A model generated the notes under the pieces. The model saw only the letters and a program-made list of their open reading frames with translations. It was not told the DNA's origin and made no database searches. Below, in pieces: positions 20,378-52,205 of a stretch of DNA of 64,000 bases; position 1 is the first letter of the stretch, and the number at the start of each line of letters is the position of its first letter. Position numbers and translations under genes: made by a program. This DNA comes from Bradyrhizobium roseum (GTDB lineage: Bacteria; Pseudomonadota; Alphaproteobacteria; Rhizobiales; Xanthobacteraceae). The DNA is taken from positions 3,596,001 to 3,660,000 of the forward strand of contig NZ_CP129212.1 in the NCBI RefSeq assembly GCF_030413175.1, in the 5' to 3' direction.

Positions 20378-21196
20378 TCACCTCCCCTTGCTGGTCGGCC
20401 AGTTGTGCGTCTCGCCCGTAGCGTCCCGGCACCAGCGATAGAACGCATCATAGAGCAGCATTCCGGCGCTGAGTTGTTCTAGGTCGTCGTCAAACATGCG
20501 CGAAAGACCGAGTGAGGCGGCGAGCAGCCCGGGTGCCTCCGGCGAAAGGTCGAGCCGCGCCGTATCGGCCGCGCGAACCATCGTCGCCAGCCTTTCTAGT
20601 GGCGGGGCCGAGAGGCCGAATTCCTGGATCATCACATCGAAGGTACAGAGTTCTCCGCGATGGCTCCAGAACACGTTCTCGATATCGAACGGGGTGGCAC
20701 CGAAGCGGTCGGCCACGGCCTCCACTTCCGAGGGCGCAACGAAGAGAAAGACCGCCGCGGGATCGATGAAGCGGCGAATCAGCCAGGGGCAGGCGATGCG
20801 GTCAATCTTGGGCCGTGCACGCGTCACCCAGACGGTGCGGCCACGGCCGTCACGCCTGGGGATCTTGTCGGCGGGAACGGCCGGCCTCTGCGTCTCGGTC
20901 CAGCCGAGATGTCCACCTTCGAGCGCTTCGGCGGCAATGCCGGACTGGCGCAGCCACGCCGCGGCGCCTTCACTGAGCTTCTTCCCTTTCTGGCAGATGA
21001 CGACGACCGGCGACTGTCCGGCAAGCTGTGGCGCCCATTCCTGCACATCAAGGTAGGAGCGCCGCATGGCGCCGGGGATCAGGCGCGGGTCGGCGGCGAA
21101 ATCTTCATCGATGCGCACATCGATCAGGGTCGGCGCCCTGGCGGTGCCAATCAGACGGGAGAGTTTGTCGGATGAGATGGTGTTATAGGAAGACAT
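20378..21196 (-). CDS. chrB: Rhodanese-ChrB fusion, chromate-resistance protein
   Basis: A 272-residue two-domain protein. Residues 1-105 are a rhodanese domain with active-site cysteine in VICQKGKK (about residue 69) between SPVVV and EGAAAWL. Residues 120-265 match the ChrB C-terminal domain: VWVTRARPKIDRIACPWLIRRFIDP, FDIENVFWSHRGELCTFD, and a late LYDAFYRWCRD. ChrB regulates or supports chromate resistance in other bacteria. The usual N-terminal part of ChrB is replaced here by rhodanese, so a sulfur or redox role is plausible. The ATG 21196 follows AAGGAC. Confidence 0.88.
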   Translation of the reverse strand: MSSYNTISSDKLSRLIGTARAPTLIDVRIDEDFAADPRLIPGAMRRSYLDVQEWAPQLAGQSPVVVICQKGKKLSEGAAAWLRQSGIAAEALEGGHLGWTETQRPAVPADKIPRRDGRGRTVWVTRARPKIDRIACPWLIRRFIDPAAVFLFVAPSEVEAVADRFGATPFDIENVFWSHRGELCTFDVMIQEFGLSAPPLERLATMVRAADTARLDLSPEAPGLLAASLGLSRMFDDDLEQLSAGMLLYDAFYRWCRDATGETHNWPTSKGR

Positions 21197-21317
21197 GTTG
21201 CGTCCTTGTGAAGGTGGACGCGATTCTTGGGCATGTCGCCTCGCGGGGAGATCGCTTTCCCCGTTTGAATAATTAAGGCCGGGCGGCCCGCCATGTCAAC
21301 GCCGGGATGCCGCGTTT

Positions 21318-33718: not shown

Positions 33719-34744
33719 CTACGCCATCGCCGGCTGCGGCAACAGCTCCGCGATCTGGATCGCGTTCAGCGCCGCGCCTTTCAGGAGCTGATCGGCCGAC
33801 ACGAACATCGAAATCGAGTGGCCTGAGGCGTCGCTGAGATCGTTGCGGATGCGGCCGACCAAAACGTCATCCTGTCCTGATGCGTCAATCGGCATCGGGA
33901 AGTAGTTTTTGGCGCGGTCGTCGACGATCCTGACGCCCGGCGCGTTGGCCAGGATGGCGCGCACCTCGTGCTCTGTGATCGGCTTCTCGCATTCGAAGGT
34001 GATCGCCTCGCAATGGGCGCGCAGCACCGGCACGCGGACGCAGGTGACGCCGATCGCGATCTGCTCATCCTCAAAAATCTTTCGCGTTTCCTTGATGACC
34101 TTCGTCTCTTCGTCGTTGTAGCCGGTCTCGGGATCGATCGCGGTATTGTGGCTGAAGACGTTGAAGGCGTAGGGCAGCGGGATCACCTTGGGCGCGAACG
34201 GCCGGCCGTCGAGATAGGCGCGGGTCGATTCCACCAGCTCTTCCATAGCCGCCGCGCCGGCGCCACTCGCCGCCTGATAGGTCGACAGGATCACCCGCTT
34301 GATGCGGTTGGCCTTGTGGATCGGCCACAGCGGCACCAGCGCCGTGATCGCCGAGCAGTTCGGATTGGCGATGATGCCCTTGTGGTCGCGGATGCGGCCG
34401 GCGTTGATCTCCGGGATCACCAGCGGCACGTTCGGGTCCATCCGGAACGCCGAGGAATTATCGACCACCACCGCGCCCGCCTTTACCGCTGCAGGCGCGA
34501 ACTTGCGCGAAATGCCGCCGCCGGCCGAGAACAGCGCGATGTCGACGCCCTCGAACGACCGTTCGGTGAGCTCTTCGATGACGACCTTCTTGCCGCGGAA
34601 ATCGATGGTCTTGCCGGCCGAGCGGGCGCTGGCGAGCGCCTTGAGCCTGCGGACCGGGAAGGCGCGCCGGTCCATGGTGGCGATGAATTCGGCGCCGACT
34701 GCGCCGGTCACGCCGACGATGGCAACAACGGGTTCGTAGCTCAC
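33719..34744 (-). CDS. asd: Aspartate-semialdehyde dehydrogenase
   Basis: Asd, 341 residues, reduces aspartyl phosphate to aspartate semialdehyde, the branch point for lysine, threonine, methionine, isoleucine and diaminopimelate. The NADP loop is VGVTGAVG. The catalytic cysteine is in ANPNCSAI near residue 128, with AASGAGAAAM nearby, and VRVPVLRAHCEAI contains the catalytic His. I prefer the GTG 34744 start (GAGGA 8 bases upstream) over ATG 34765, which has no ribosome-binding site and lies right after a terminator. A leader peptide and terminator upstream indicate attenuation. Confidence 0.96.
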   Translation of the reverse strand: MSYEPVVAIVGVTGAVGAEFIATMDRRAFPVRRLKALASARSAGKTIDFRGKKVVIEELTERSFEGVDIALFSAGGGISRKFAPAAVKAGAVVVDNSSAFRMDPNVPLVIPEINAGRIRDHKGIIANPNCSAITALVPLWPIHKANRIKRVILSTYQAASGAGAAAMEELVESTRAYLDGRPFAPKVIPLPYAFNVFSHNTAIDPETGYNDEETKVIKETRKIFEDEQIAIGVTCVRVPVLRAHCEAITFECEKPITEHEVRAILANAPGVRIVDDRAKNYFPMPIDASGQDDVLVGRIRNDLSDASGHSISMFVSADQLLKGAALNAIQIAELLPQPAMA

Positions 34745-34777
34745 GGGTCTGTCCTCTGTTTGCATAATGCGGGCAAT

Positions 34778-34807
34778 AAAAAAGCCCCGGTCCTTTTCAG
34801 GCGGGGC
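34778..34807 (-). terminator. Attenuator terminator upstream of asd
   Basis: On the minus strand, GCCCCG-loop-CGGGGC followed by TTTTTTATT. It lies between the leader peptide and asd. A stretch of the leader, CGGGGGCTC, can pair with the 5' arm AGCCCC, offering an alternative antiterminator fold. Confidence 0.8.
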
Positions 34808-34834
34808 TTCGGTTCAGATGATGCGTTCGTTCGA

Positions 34835-34906
34835 CTACGCGCGCACGGCTCCCGAGCCCCCGGAGGGTGCTTTGGTTTTCGTGATCGTTTTGGTCGAGAT
34901 CGGCAT
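34835..34906 (-). CDS. Leader peptide of the asd attenuator (thrL-like)
   Basis: A 23-codon open frame on the minus strand that begins MPISTKTITKTK and ends in a Gly/Ser-rich tail and TAG. Four Thr, three Lys and two Ile codons sit within the first 12 codons; these are end products of the pathway that Asd feeds. E. coli thrL has a similar Thr/Ile run followed by GNGAG. The frame stops 28 bases before the terminator hairpin, as required for ribosome-controlled attenuation. The ribosome-binding site is weak, which is the main doubt. Confidence 0.65.
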   Translation of the reverse strand: MPISTKTITKTKAPSGGSGAVRA

Positions 34907-34992
34907 GGCGCGGACTTATGCGGCAGCTTGGGGACGTCGTCAACCGGTTTCGGCCTTATCCGCGGGCTGCAACGGTGGCCGGACGAGGCTCG

Positions 34993-35613
34993 TCATCGCC
35001 GCCTTGCGACGCCCGGAGGCTCGAGGATCACTTCCTTGAGGTCACTGCCGCTCATGACGACGATCGCGAAGCTCAGCCGGCTGCGTTCGCGGATCAGGCC
35101 GCCGCTGATGGCCTTGCCGGCCGCCGCCTGCTCGGCCAGGCGGACGGCATCCGCCAAGCGGTGCCGGATCGTCTTGAGAGCAACGAGGTTGCTGCGGTCC
35201 CCGGCATCGAGTTCCTTCAGGGGCAGGGCGGCTTCGCCACCGACGATCTTGCCAGTCGTAGCGTCGATGGTGTGTTGCCAGATGCGGTCGTGGTGAAGGG
35301 TCTTTACCCGGTAGACCGGTGAATCCGGCGTGCCGTCGAAGCTGACATCGGCGGCGATTGCGCCGGCATGCCTGGCCTCGGCGATCGCCATCGCCTGGCT
35401 GAGCGAGATCGCCGAGCCACGGAAGAGCTCAAGCTCGCGGTTGACCGCCTGCCGGTCGGATGCCGCGCTCTCCTCGGCCTCATTGCGGAGCGAGGCTGGC
35501 TCGCCGGTCTGCGACGCGTTGGCAGAGACGGGGGCAGGCAGGATGATCGCCACCAGGACGATTGCGAGCAACTGTCTCCAACATCCCGGCGCGCGCATGT
35601 TTGCCGTCTCCAT
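34993..35613 (-). CDS. Secreted PepSY-domain protein (two PepSY units)
   Basis: A 206-residue exported protein. The signal peptide is WRQLLAIVLVAIILPAPVSA. The first PepSY unit covers about residues 65-125 (ISLSQAMAIAEARHAGAIAADVSFDG...YRVKTLHHDRIWQHTIDATTGKIVG). The second, about 145-200, includes LADAVRLAEQAAAGKAISGGL. PepSY proteins often act as inhibitors or sensors in the periplasm. A long palindrome 178 bases upstream (35791-35823) matches another at the patatin gene and probably binds the TetR encoded between them. Confidence 0.8.
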   Translation of the reverse strand: METANMRAPGCWRQLLAIVLVAIILPAPVSANASQTGEPASLRNEAEESAASDRQAVNRELELFRGSAISLSQAMAIAEARHAGAIAADVSFDGTPDSPVYRVKTLHHDRIWQHTIDATTGKIVGGEAALPLKELDAGDRSNLVALKTIRHRLADAVRLAEQAAAGKAISGGLIRERSRLSFAIVVMSGSDLKEVILEPPGVARRR

Positions 35614-52129: not shown

Positions 52130-52205
52130 TGGTGAGCGCGGAGGGACTCGAACCCTCGACCCCATGATTAAAAGTCACGTGCTCTACCGCCTGAGCTACG
52201 CGCTC
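52130..52205 (-). tRNA. tRNA-Lys (anticodon TTT)
   Basis: A full cloverleaf on the minus strand. Acceptor stem GAGCGCG / CGCGCTC, D-arm TAGCTCAGGCGGTAGAGCA, anticodon loop CTTTTAA (TTT), T-arm GGGTTCGAGTCCC, discriminator A, and an encoded CCA at 52130-52132. Confidence 0.95.

Follow-up and report, generated by a model that had tools for sequence, protein, structure and literature searches.

A predicted threonine- and lysine-sensing leader-peptide attenuator before a second asd gene in Bradyrhizobium

The thrL leader of Escherichia coli, which senses Thr and Ile, lies before thrA and controls thrABC. Proteobacterial attenuators were reportedly the subject of a study by Vitreschak in 2004, which may bear on the priority of the present finding. 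In ermC-type translational attenuators, a stalled ribosome frees a Shine-Dalgarno (SD) sequence; attenuators of this type are mentioned in the available part of another paper (PMC2965389). In Alphaproteobacteria, the rnTrpL/peTrpL attenuator of Sinorhizobium meliloti senses Trp, and its RNA is reported to start at its own ATG (extracts of PMC7298713). An earlier suggestion of a Thr/Lys leader also comes from S. meliloti: SEP5, a small frame in the 5'-UTR of an 'aspartate dehydrogenase' gene, contains six Thr and three Lys codons, is translated according to Ribo-seq and Western analyses, was called possibly a leader peptide, and is described as conserved only in Sinorhizobium (extracts of PMC10117765). 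The asd leader described below was unreported in the accessible portions of the full-text literature searched, which was mostly without subscription papers and included PMC10117765, PMC7298713, PMC1273637, PMC4842269, PMC1262725, PMC2965389, and PMC4117421.

In the present study, we analyzed a 64,000-nucleotide stretch of the Bradyrhizobium roseum genome (hereafter, the window). In this soil bacterium, the minus strand reads, from 5' to 3', TTGACG-N17-CATAAG-N8-ATG, a 23-codon frame, a 25-nt gap, a GC hairpin and its six T residues, and asd. The leader peptide frame, MPISTKTITKTKAPSGGSGAVRA, occupies 34906-34835 (minus strand; ATG 34906, TAG 34837-34835), and it has Thr at codons 5, 7, 9, and 11, Lys at codons 6, 10, and 12, and Ile at codons 3 and 8; codons 5-12 form the Thr/Lys block. 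A short frame rich in codons for the regulated amino acids is located ahead of their biosynthetic gene, with an intrinsic terminator between the two, and the Thr/Lys-rich minus-strand frame that an earlier note on this DNA had claimed before asd was found as described. A small PepSY-domain gene lies upstream of the leader on the same strand (34993-35613, minus strand).

The gene downstream of the leader (33719..34744, minus strand) encodes an aspartate-semialdehyde dehydrogenase of 341 aa, which is complete by NCBIfam and Pfam (NF011456, 435 bits; PF01118; PF02774). It is a second asd paralogue; the ordinary asd of the same genome has 46% identity to it, and two asd matches were found in each of the 7 genus genomes examined. 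In our judgement, the start codon is most likely GTG 34744, with the probable SD sequence AGAGGA (34752..34757, minus strand) ahead of it. The in-frame alternative, ATG 34765, had no counterpart there in the relatives compared.

We then compared the best 80 of 562 relatives, with asd identities of 84-95% (the close set); 76 of them were titled Bradyrhizobium, the exceptions being L012, L018, L035, and L062. The leader frame was present in 80/80 close loci as 39 distinct peptides with 6-10 Thr and Lys in 12 codons, and none of 2400 dinucleotide shuffles (30 per locus) scored as high in Thr+Lys as the locus from which it was made. Among eight further genus loci (L112-L117, L165, and L166), some of which possibly repeat genomes of the close set, seven had the leader, and the frame of L165 was broken. 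The earlier note had named a lack of frame conservation in relatives as refuting its reading; the frame was instead conserved in the close loci, in 7/8 of the further loci, and, as described below, in 19/24 loci outside the genus. The window, the close set, L114-L117, and L166 were combined as the genus set (86 loci); besides the window, 79 of its 85 leader-to-terminator stretches were mutually distinct. When 60 genomes were searched, a match at the DNA level was obtained in 35, all among the 36 of the genus.

Codons were analyzed in 82 of the 86 leaders (24 codons including the stop codon, 52 distinct sequences), and the four leaders of differing length were excluded. Thr was found at codon 5 in 80 leaders, Lys at codon 6 in 81, Thr at codon 8 in 79, Lys at codon 10 in 82, and Thr at codon 11 in 82, and synonymous Thr codons of several kinds were used at codons 3, 8, and 9. 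Ile was found at codon 2 in 13 leaders, at codon 3 in 4/82, and at codon 8 in 1/82. As Ile is unconserved, we ruled it out as a third signal, and the claim that it is sensed was not supported. The pN/pS ratio, summed over pairs without a tree, was 0.61 over codons 2-13 and 2.81 over codons 14-23; codons 2-13 vary like a peptide, and codons 14-23 like paired RNA, in which silent sites are more constrained. Lys in the leader was encoded by 180 AAA and 15 AAG codons (195 in total), versus 60 AAA and 1460 AAG codons (1520 in total) in the asd stretches of the same 80 loci. Elsewhere in the window, we observed a tRNA-Lys(UUU) gene (52130-52205, minus strand), which would read the AAA codons preferred in the leader. 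A similarity search with the UUU gene revealed no tRNA-Lys gene with the anticodon CUU, a result that does not show its absence.

The predicted promoter of the leader is located at 34915..34943 on the minus strand (TTGACG, 34943-34938; a spacer of 17 nt; CATAAG, 34920-34915). In the genus set, TTKAC was located 36-38 nt upstream of the leader ATG in 86/86 loci, and CATAAG was present in 85/86. TTKAC was also located 35-40 nt upstream of the leader ATG in 31 of 36 loci outside the genus set, where the result is favorably biased by the search having taken the in-frame ATG closest to 36.5 nt; the background rate, TTKAC 34-39 nt upstream of a random ATG, was 70 in 3060 cases. An SD-like word before the leader ATG was found in 0/122 loci. 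Because of the promoter spacing, transcription is likely to start at or near the leader ATG, and the leader mRNA is predicted to be leaderless, with +1 at or adjoining the ATG. The spacing and the absent SD are compatible with the trait of rnTrpL, a transcript starting at the leader ATG; rnTrpL and the window leader would share, as alphaproteobacterial attenuators, an RNA beginning at the leader ATG, which is only predicted for the window (extracts of PMC7298713 for rnTrpL). In B. japonicum, 320 reported starts fall 0-10 nt upstream of annotated start codons, and 192 of these coincide with the codon (extracts of PMC4842269).

The intrinsic terminator (34778..34809, minus strand) has the stem AAGCCCCG..CGGGGCTT, with inner CCT/AGG, and is followed by T6. 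The hairpin AAGCCCCG-CCTGAAAAGGAC-CGGGGCTT at 34809-34782 is 25 nt past the stop codon, and the six T residues are at 34783-34778, so that the strong hairpin with six Us claimed between leader and asd was confirmed. A simple terminator scan did not list this hairpin, probably due to the inner bulge. In the genus set, GGGG(C/T)(T/C)TTTT was found after the leader in 85/85 loci tried.

The putative antiterminator consists of a 5' arm, GGGGCUCGGGA, located in leader codons 16-19 (34850..34860, minus strand), and a 3' arm, UC....CCG.AGCCCC (34803..34818, minus strand), which overlaps the terminator 5' arm. This pairing bears out the earlier proposal that a leader stretch, CGGGGGCTC, can pair with the terminator 5' arm. 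A small leader hairpin, GGCU-CGGG-AGCC (34847..34858, minus strand), excludes the antiterminator. When RNA that had emerged up to the terminator loop was folded, GGGGCUCGGGA was paired with the 3' arm with the ribosome on the Thr/Lys codons, and this pairing was lost with the ribosome at codon 16 or at the stop codon. Over the 86 loci, for which the folding model was run with one ribosome footprint size, the mean antiterminator probability was 0.85 on the Thr/Lys codons and 0.47 at codon 13; it had fallen to 0.03 by codon 17, stayed within 0.03-0.05 through codon 19, and was 0 thereafter. Each of the 86 loci conformed to the classical switch logic. The drop beyond codon 17 is due to geometry, because the ribosome then masks the antiterminator arm; the informative part of the model is the location of the arm directly behind the Thr/Lys block. 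The folding prediction is a mutually exclusive antiterminator that is masked after the ribosome clears the control codons.

The window and, as a control, E. coli thrL were also run through a near-identical script in which every upstream pairing is counted, including pairing outside the frame. By this count, the window stood at 0.78 through codon 12, dropped to 0.06-0.08 over codons 16-19, and still showed 0.19-0.28 over codons 20-24. For thrL, the value was 1.00 through codon 15 and fell to 0.78 at Thr16 and to 0.24 one codon later, which places the thrL switch at its last Thr codon. The window leader shares with thrL a Thr-rich leader frame, a terminator with a U-tract, and an arm that pairs upstream until the last Thr codon. 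It differs from thrL in having Thr and Lys and a position before asd, in its unconserved Ile, in the lack of an SD before the frame, and in its use of AAA for Lys. Our model R1 matches thrL at E 0.0023; this match is no evidence of descent, because R1 also matches apparent plain terminators.

At equilibrium, the full-length RNA preferred the terminator at every ribosome position tried. Equilibrium folding of the full RNA was therefore dropped as a proof of the switch, and only the co-transcriptional question is informative; control must therefore be kinetic. The mean antiterminator complementarity in 35 loci was 0.67 versus 0.37 in shuffles, with 333 of 2100 shuffles equally high, and this mean includes three loci (L029, L154, and L163) in which, by eye, the hairpin finder picked the wrong hairpin. 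In DNA this rich in GC, such complementarity exceeds the chance level only moderately, and the stability of the whole leader was unremarkable (z -0.50).

The earlier note had also proposed compensatory changes as a check. In a 38-row alignment (A1), the small leader hairpin had one pair with such changes (both sides changed in 12 rows), the inner terminator stem had them in a single row, and the antiterminator had none. In the small leader hairpin, 216 of 500 shuffles had as many pairs with both sides changed, and the loop-adjacent pair was broken in 17/38 rows. Codons 17 and 20 swap together, with GGC..GCC in 21 and GCC..GGC in 61 of 82 leaders, so that this hairpin stays paired; the swap may be a single event. 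The outer terminator stem was hardly variable, and six pairs were invariant over the 38 rows. In the antiterminator template, 6/9 pairs vary or break, and 78.1% of cells were paired, which was no better than in shuffled rows.

From the conserved frame, codon make-up, promoter spacing, terminator, and mutually exclusive pairings, all of which are present in the sequences, we consider it very probable that asd is controlled by a ribosome-mediated transcription attenuator with threonyl-tRNA and lysyl-tRNA as its joint signals. The start site, stalling, termination efficiency, and starvation response are the steps that we infer. Transcription would begin at or beside the leader ATG, as the promoter spacing suggests. 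If Thr and Lys are abundant, the ribosome would reach the stop codon and mask GGGGCUCGGG, and the terminator would halt RNA polymerase before asd. If Thr or Lys is scarce, the ribosome would stall on codons 5-12; GGGGCUCGGG would then be free to capture the emerging terminator 5' arm, and asd would be transcribed. The earlier suggestion of Thr/Lys(/Ile) attenuation of asd is thus retained for Thr and Lys, for which sequence evidence comes from the conservation of the frame and the switch logic in 86/86 loci, and is abandoned for Ile.

Rfam includes a Thr leader family and the lysine riboswitch (L box). Scans of the window at the gathering threshold and of 34700-35000 at E up to 10 gave no match to an Rfam Thr leader, and a known riboswitch, including the L box, was ruled out by the lack of an Rfam match in the same scans. 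Elsewhere in the window, we observed the Rfam chrB-a RNA (21194-21267, minus strand, 76.4 bits), which runs up to an ATG frame near 21195.

Window-type asd (E up to 1e-120) was found in 21 of 289 class genomes. It is rare in the rest of the order beyond the genus: with a limit of 1e-105, it was found in 10 of 297 genomes of the order, of which a single one lay outside the genus, and the family draw gave one other genus (G133) with an 82% asd copy. Among 22 ordinary asd loci of the family, L121 was the only one with a Thr/Lys-rich frame, a GTG frame VTKKPATTPSTAKGGTTR with 7 Thr and Lys in 12 codons that is located 209-152 nt before asd. Outside the genus, the Thr/Lys leader preceded 19 of 24 window-type asd loci (L118, L141-L155, L157-L160, L162-L164, and L167; L156, at a contig end, was excluded), with none of 30 shuffles equal, and five loci were without it. 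Both Thr and Lys occurred within the first 18 residues in 19/19 of these leaders; the leader of L152 was weak (score 4). In the genus g140, the leader was present in 10/10 fetched asd of 71-73% identity. At 57-61% identity, 19 of 39 asd were fetched and the leader was judged absent by eye, although the frames of L212, L214, L218, L220, and L223 in this group scored above 30/30 shuffles for Thr+Lys. Similar Thr-containing frames, e.g. MITKTMIDTPTTVSAPNTSLRAM, were observed about 220-135 nt before g140 asd without the Thr/Lys leader in L212, L213, L214, L223, and L225. In the order of G381, the leader was present in 9/9 asd of 56-62% identity and absent from 10/10 of 66-71%.

In a tree of 64 chosen proteins, one branch split 38/38 leader-bearing asd from 16 without the leader, with a support of 91/44, which is not firm, and the Bradyrhizobium rows joined family f30 of the class (99/95). 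A single origin of the leader is possible. Because of the tree and the rarity of window-type asd in the order, asd and its leader may have been transferred together into Bradyrhizobium. Model R1, searched over 289 class genomes, apparently the same draw, matched 10 genomes, namely 7 of the 21 with window-type asd and three others (L294-L296; E 1e-4 to 6e-4) that resemble plain terminators; R1 misses most window-type asd loci, and weak R1 hits were excluded as proof.

The number of U residues in the 8 nt after the hairpin was 7 in the window, L118, L141, L143, and L163, 6 in L142 and L150, 5 in L149, and at most 4 in 12 of the 19 outside-genus leader loci; the count of L152 was measured at the wrong place and, by eye, is also low. 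By eye, several outside-genus loci have a hairpin over the asd SD, e.g. GUCUCC..GGAGAC, and in the folding model the SD opened by more than 0.15 on stalling in 4/19 (L145, L148, L150, and L206). Of 27 loci 'without T-tract', seven, six of them from the genus g229, had a pairing of the SD with upstream sequence that no more than 10 of 200 shuffles equalled; the 27 include eight loci of the f92, L149, or L150 kind, with 5-6 U in 8 where measured. The same test was positive in 0/24 terminator loci, 4/34 no-leader loci, and 0/22 ordinary asd loci. We hypothesize that the output outside the genus may be translational. If the U-tract-less relatives follow ermC-type logic, which these results weakly suggest, amino acids, not drugs, would be the signal. 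The low U counts and the hairpins over the SD could also be taken to mean that asd is controlled via translation initiation or Rho rather than intrinsic termination even in Bradyrhizobium. In the genus set, however, a GC stem and a T-tract were found in all of the 85 loci tried, the stem has its six pairs invariant over 38 rows, and SD pairing was above shuffles in 0/20 loci, and we regard this reading as very improbable.

Termination at the attenuator would free an RNA of about 130 nt that is leaderless and begins with the frame, like that described for rnTrpL (extracts of PMC7298713), and the leader might act chiefly in trans, either as a small leaderless mRNA/sRNA or as a peptide, in the manner of S. 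meliloti rnTrpL/peTrpL. However, codons 14-23 show greater change in the encoded protein than at silent sites, and the Thr/Lys block fits the downstream gene; we thus give a mainly trans-acting leader very little weight. Trans action is compatible with attenuation and may add to it.

It is highly improbable that the hairpin merely terminates the upstream gene and that the frame is a chance ORF: a PepSY gene match is located upstream in 66/80 close loci, but the leader and terminator persist in the 14 loci without this match (13 with a divergent tgt-like gene upstream; L004, with sequence too short to tell), by which we ruled this reading out, and the conserved promoter immediately ahead of the leader and the retained Thr/Lys codons also argue against it.

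Related leaders were found before other genes. In the window's genome, a second R1 match (24.2 bits, E 0.019) was MKKLFSAASTTTATAYGGSPAGCAR, ahead of a short thrS, at G000:C1:1786899-1788289 on the plus strand (L246, L249). The short thrS matched TIGR00418 with 432 bits but lacks the first ~170 positions of the model. It was present in 8 of 36 genus genomes searched, with a Thr-only leader of similar layout to the asd leader in 8/8 such loci, and in L255 and L256 it was split in two pieces. The thrS leaders have TTGAC 35 nt upstream of the ATG, Thr in the block, and Lys at codons 2-3 only, followed by a GGCCCCGCC hairpin and then four or five T residues, and they are apparently leaderless. The Thr-only leader before thrS fits the expectation that the codons name the sensed amino acid.

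In family f24, which is presumably that of Sinorhizobium, 26 of 30 loci examined (L168-L197, from 59 genomes with a match) had at least 6 Thr and Lys in 12 codons before ordinary asd, with three start codons allowed and counts taken without a shuffle comparison. The cluster, typically TKTTAKTTTKTV, is located at the end of the frame, and the downstream sequences differ from that of the window. The f24 leaders fit the description of SEP5, whose cluster is at the 3' end of the frame, whereas the window leader has its cluster at the 5' end and precedes the other asd paralogue, and thus falls outside a SEP5-like class (extracts of PMC10117765 for SEP5). The distribution of f24-type leaders appears wider than the published SEP5 claim.

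Tentatively, these leaders may form a single family of leaderless leader-peptide switches in Alphaproteobacteria, in which both the sensing codons and the outputs are exchangeable. The sensing codons would be Thr plus Lys ahead of asd but only Thr ahead of the short thrS. The output would be a terminator in Bradyrhizobium and a small number of other groups; elsewhere, across many lineages, a segment freed by the stalled ribosome would open the hairpin over the asd SD, resulting in translational control driven by amino-acid starvation. We regard this family as a possibility rather than as the expected case. The mechanism itself is ordinary, that of a classical attenuator. What is new is this member, the sensing of two amino acids with a predicted leaderless mRNA, and the breadth, as well as the preference for AAA Lys codons, which are rare in asd, the second asd paralogue as the target, and the Thr-only sister leader before thrS. 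The asd product is the branch-point intermediate for lysine and threonine synthesis. If the proposed attenuator is true, a single leader responsive to the two end products would provide this branch point with a built-in sensor of two inputs. The predicted leaderless start, the use of AAA, and the apparent change of output by lineage would make attenuator evolution testable on possibly one homologous element.
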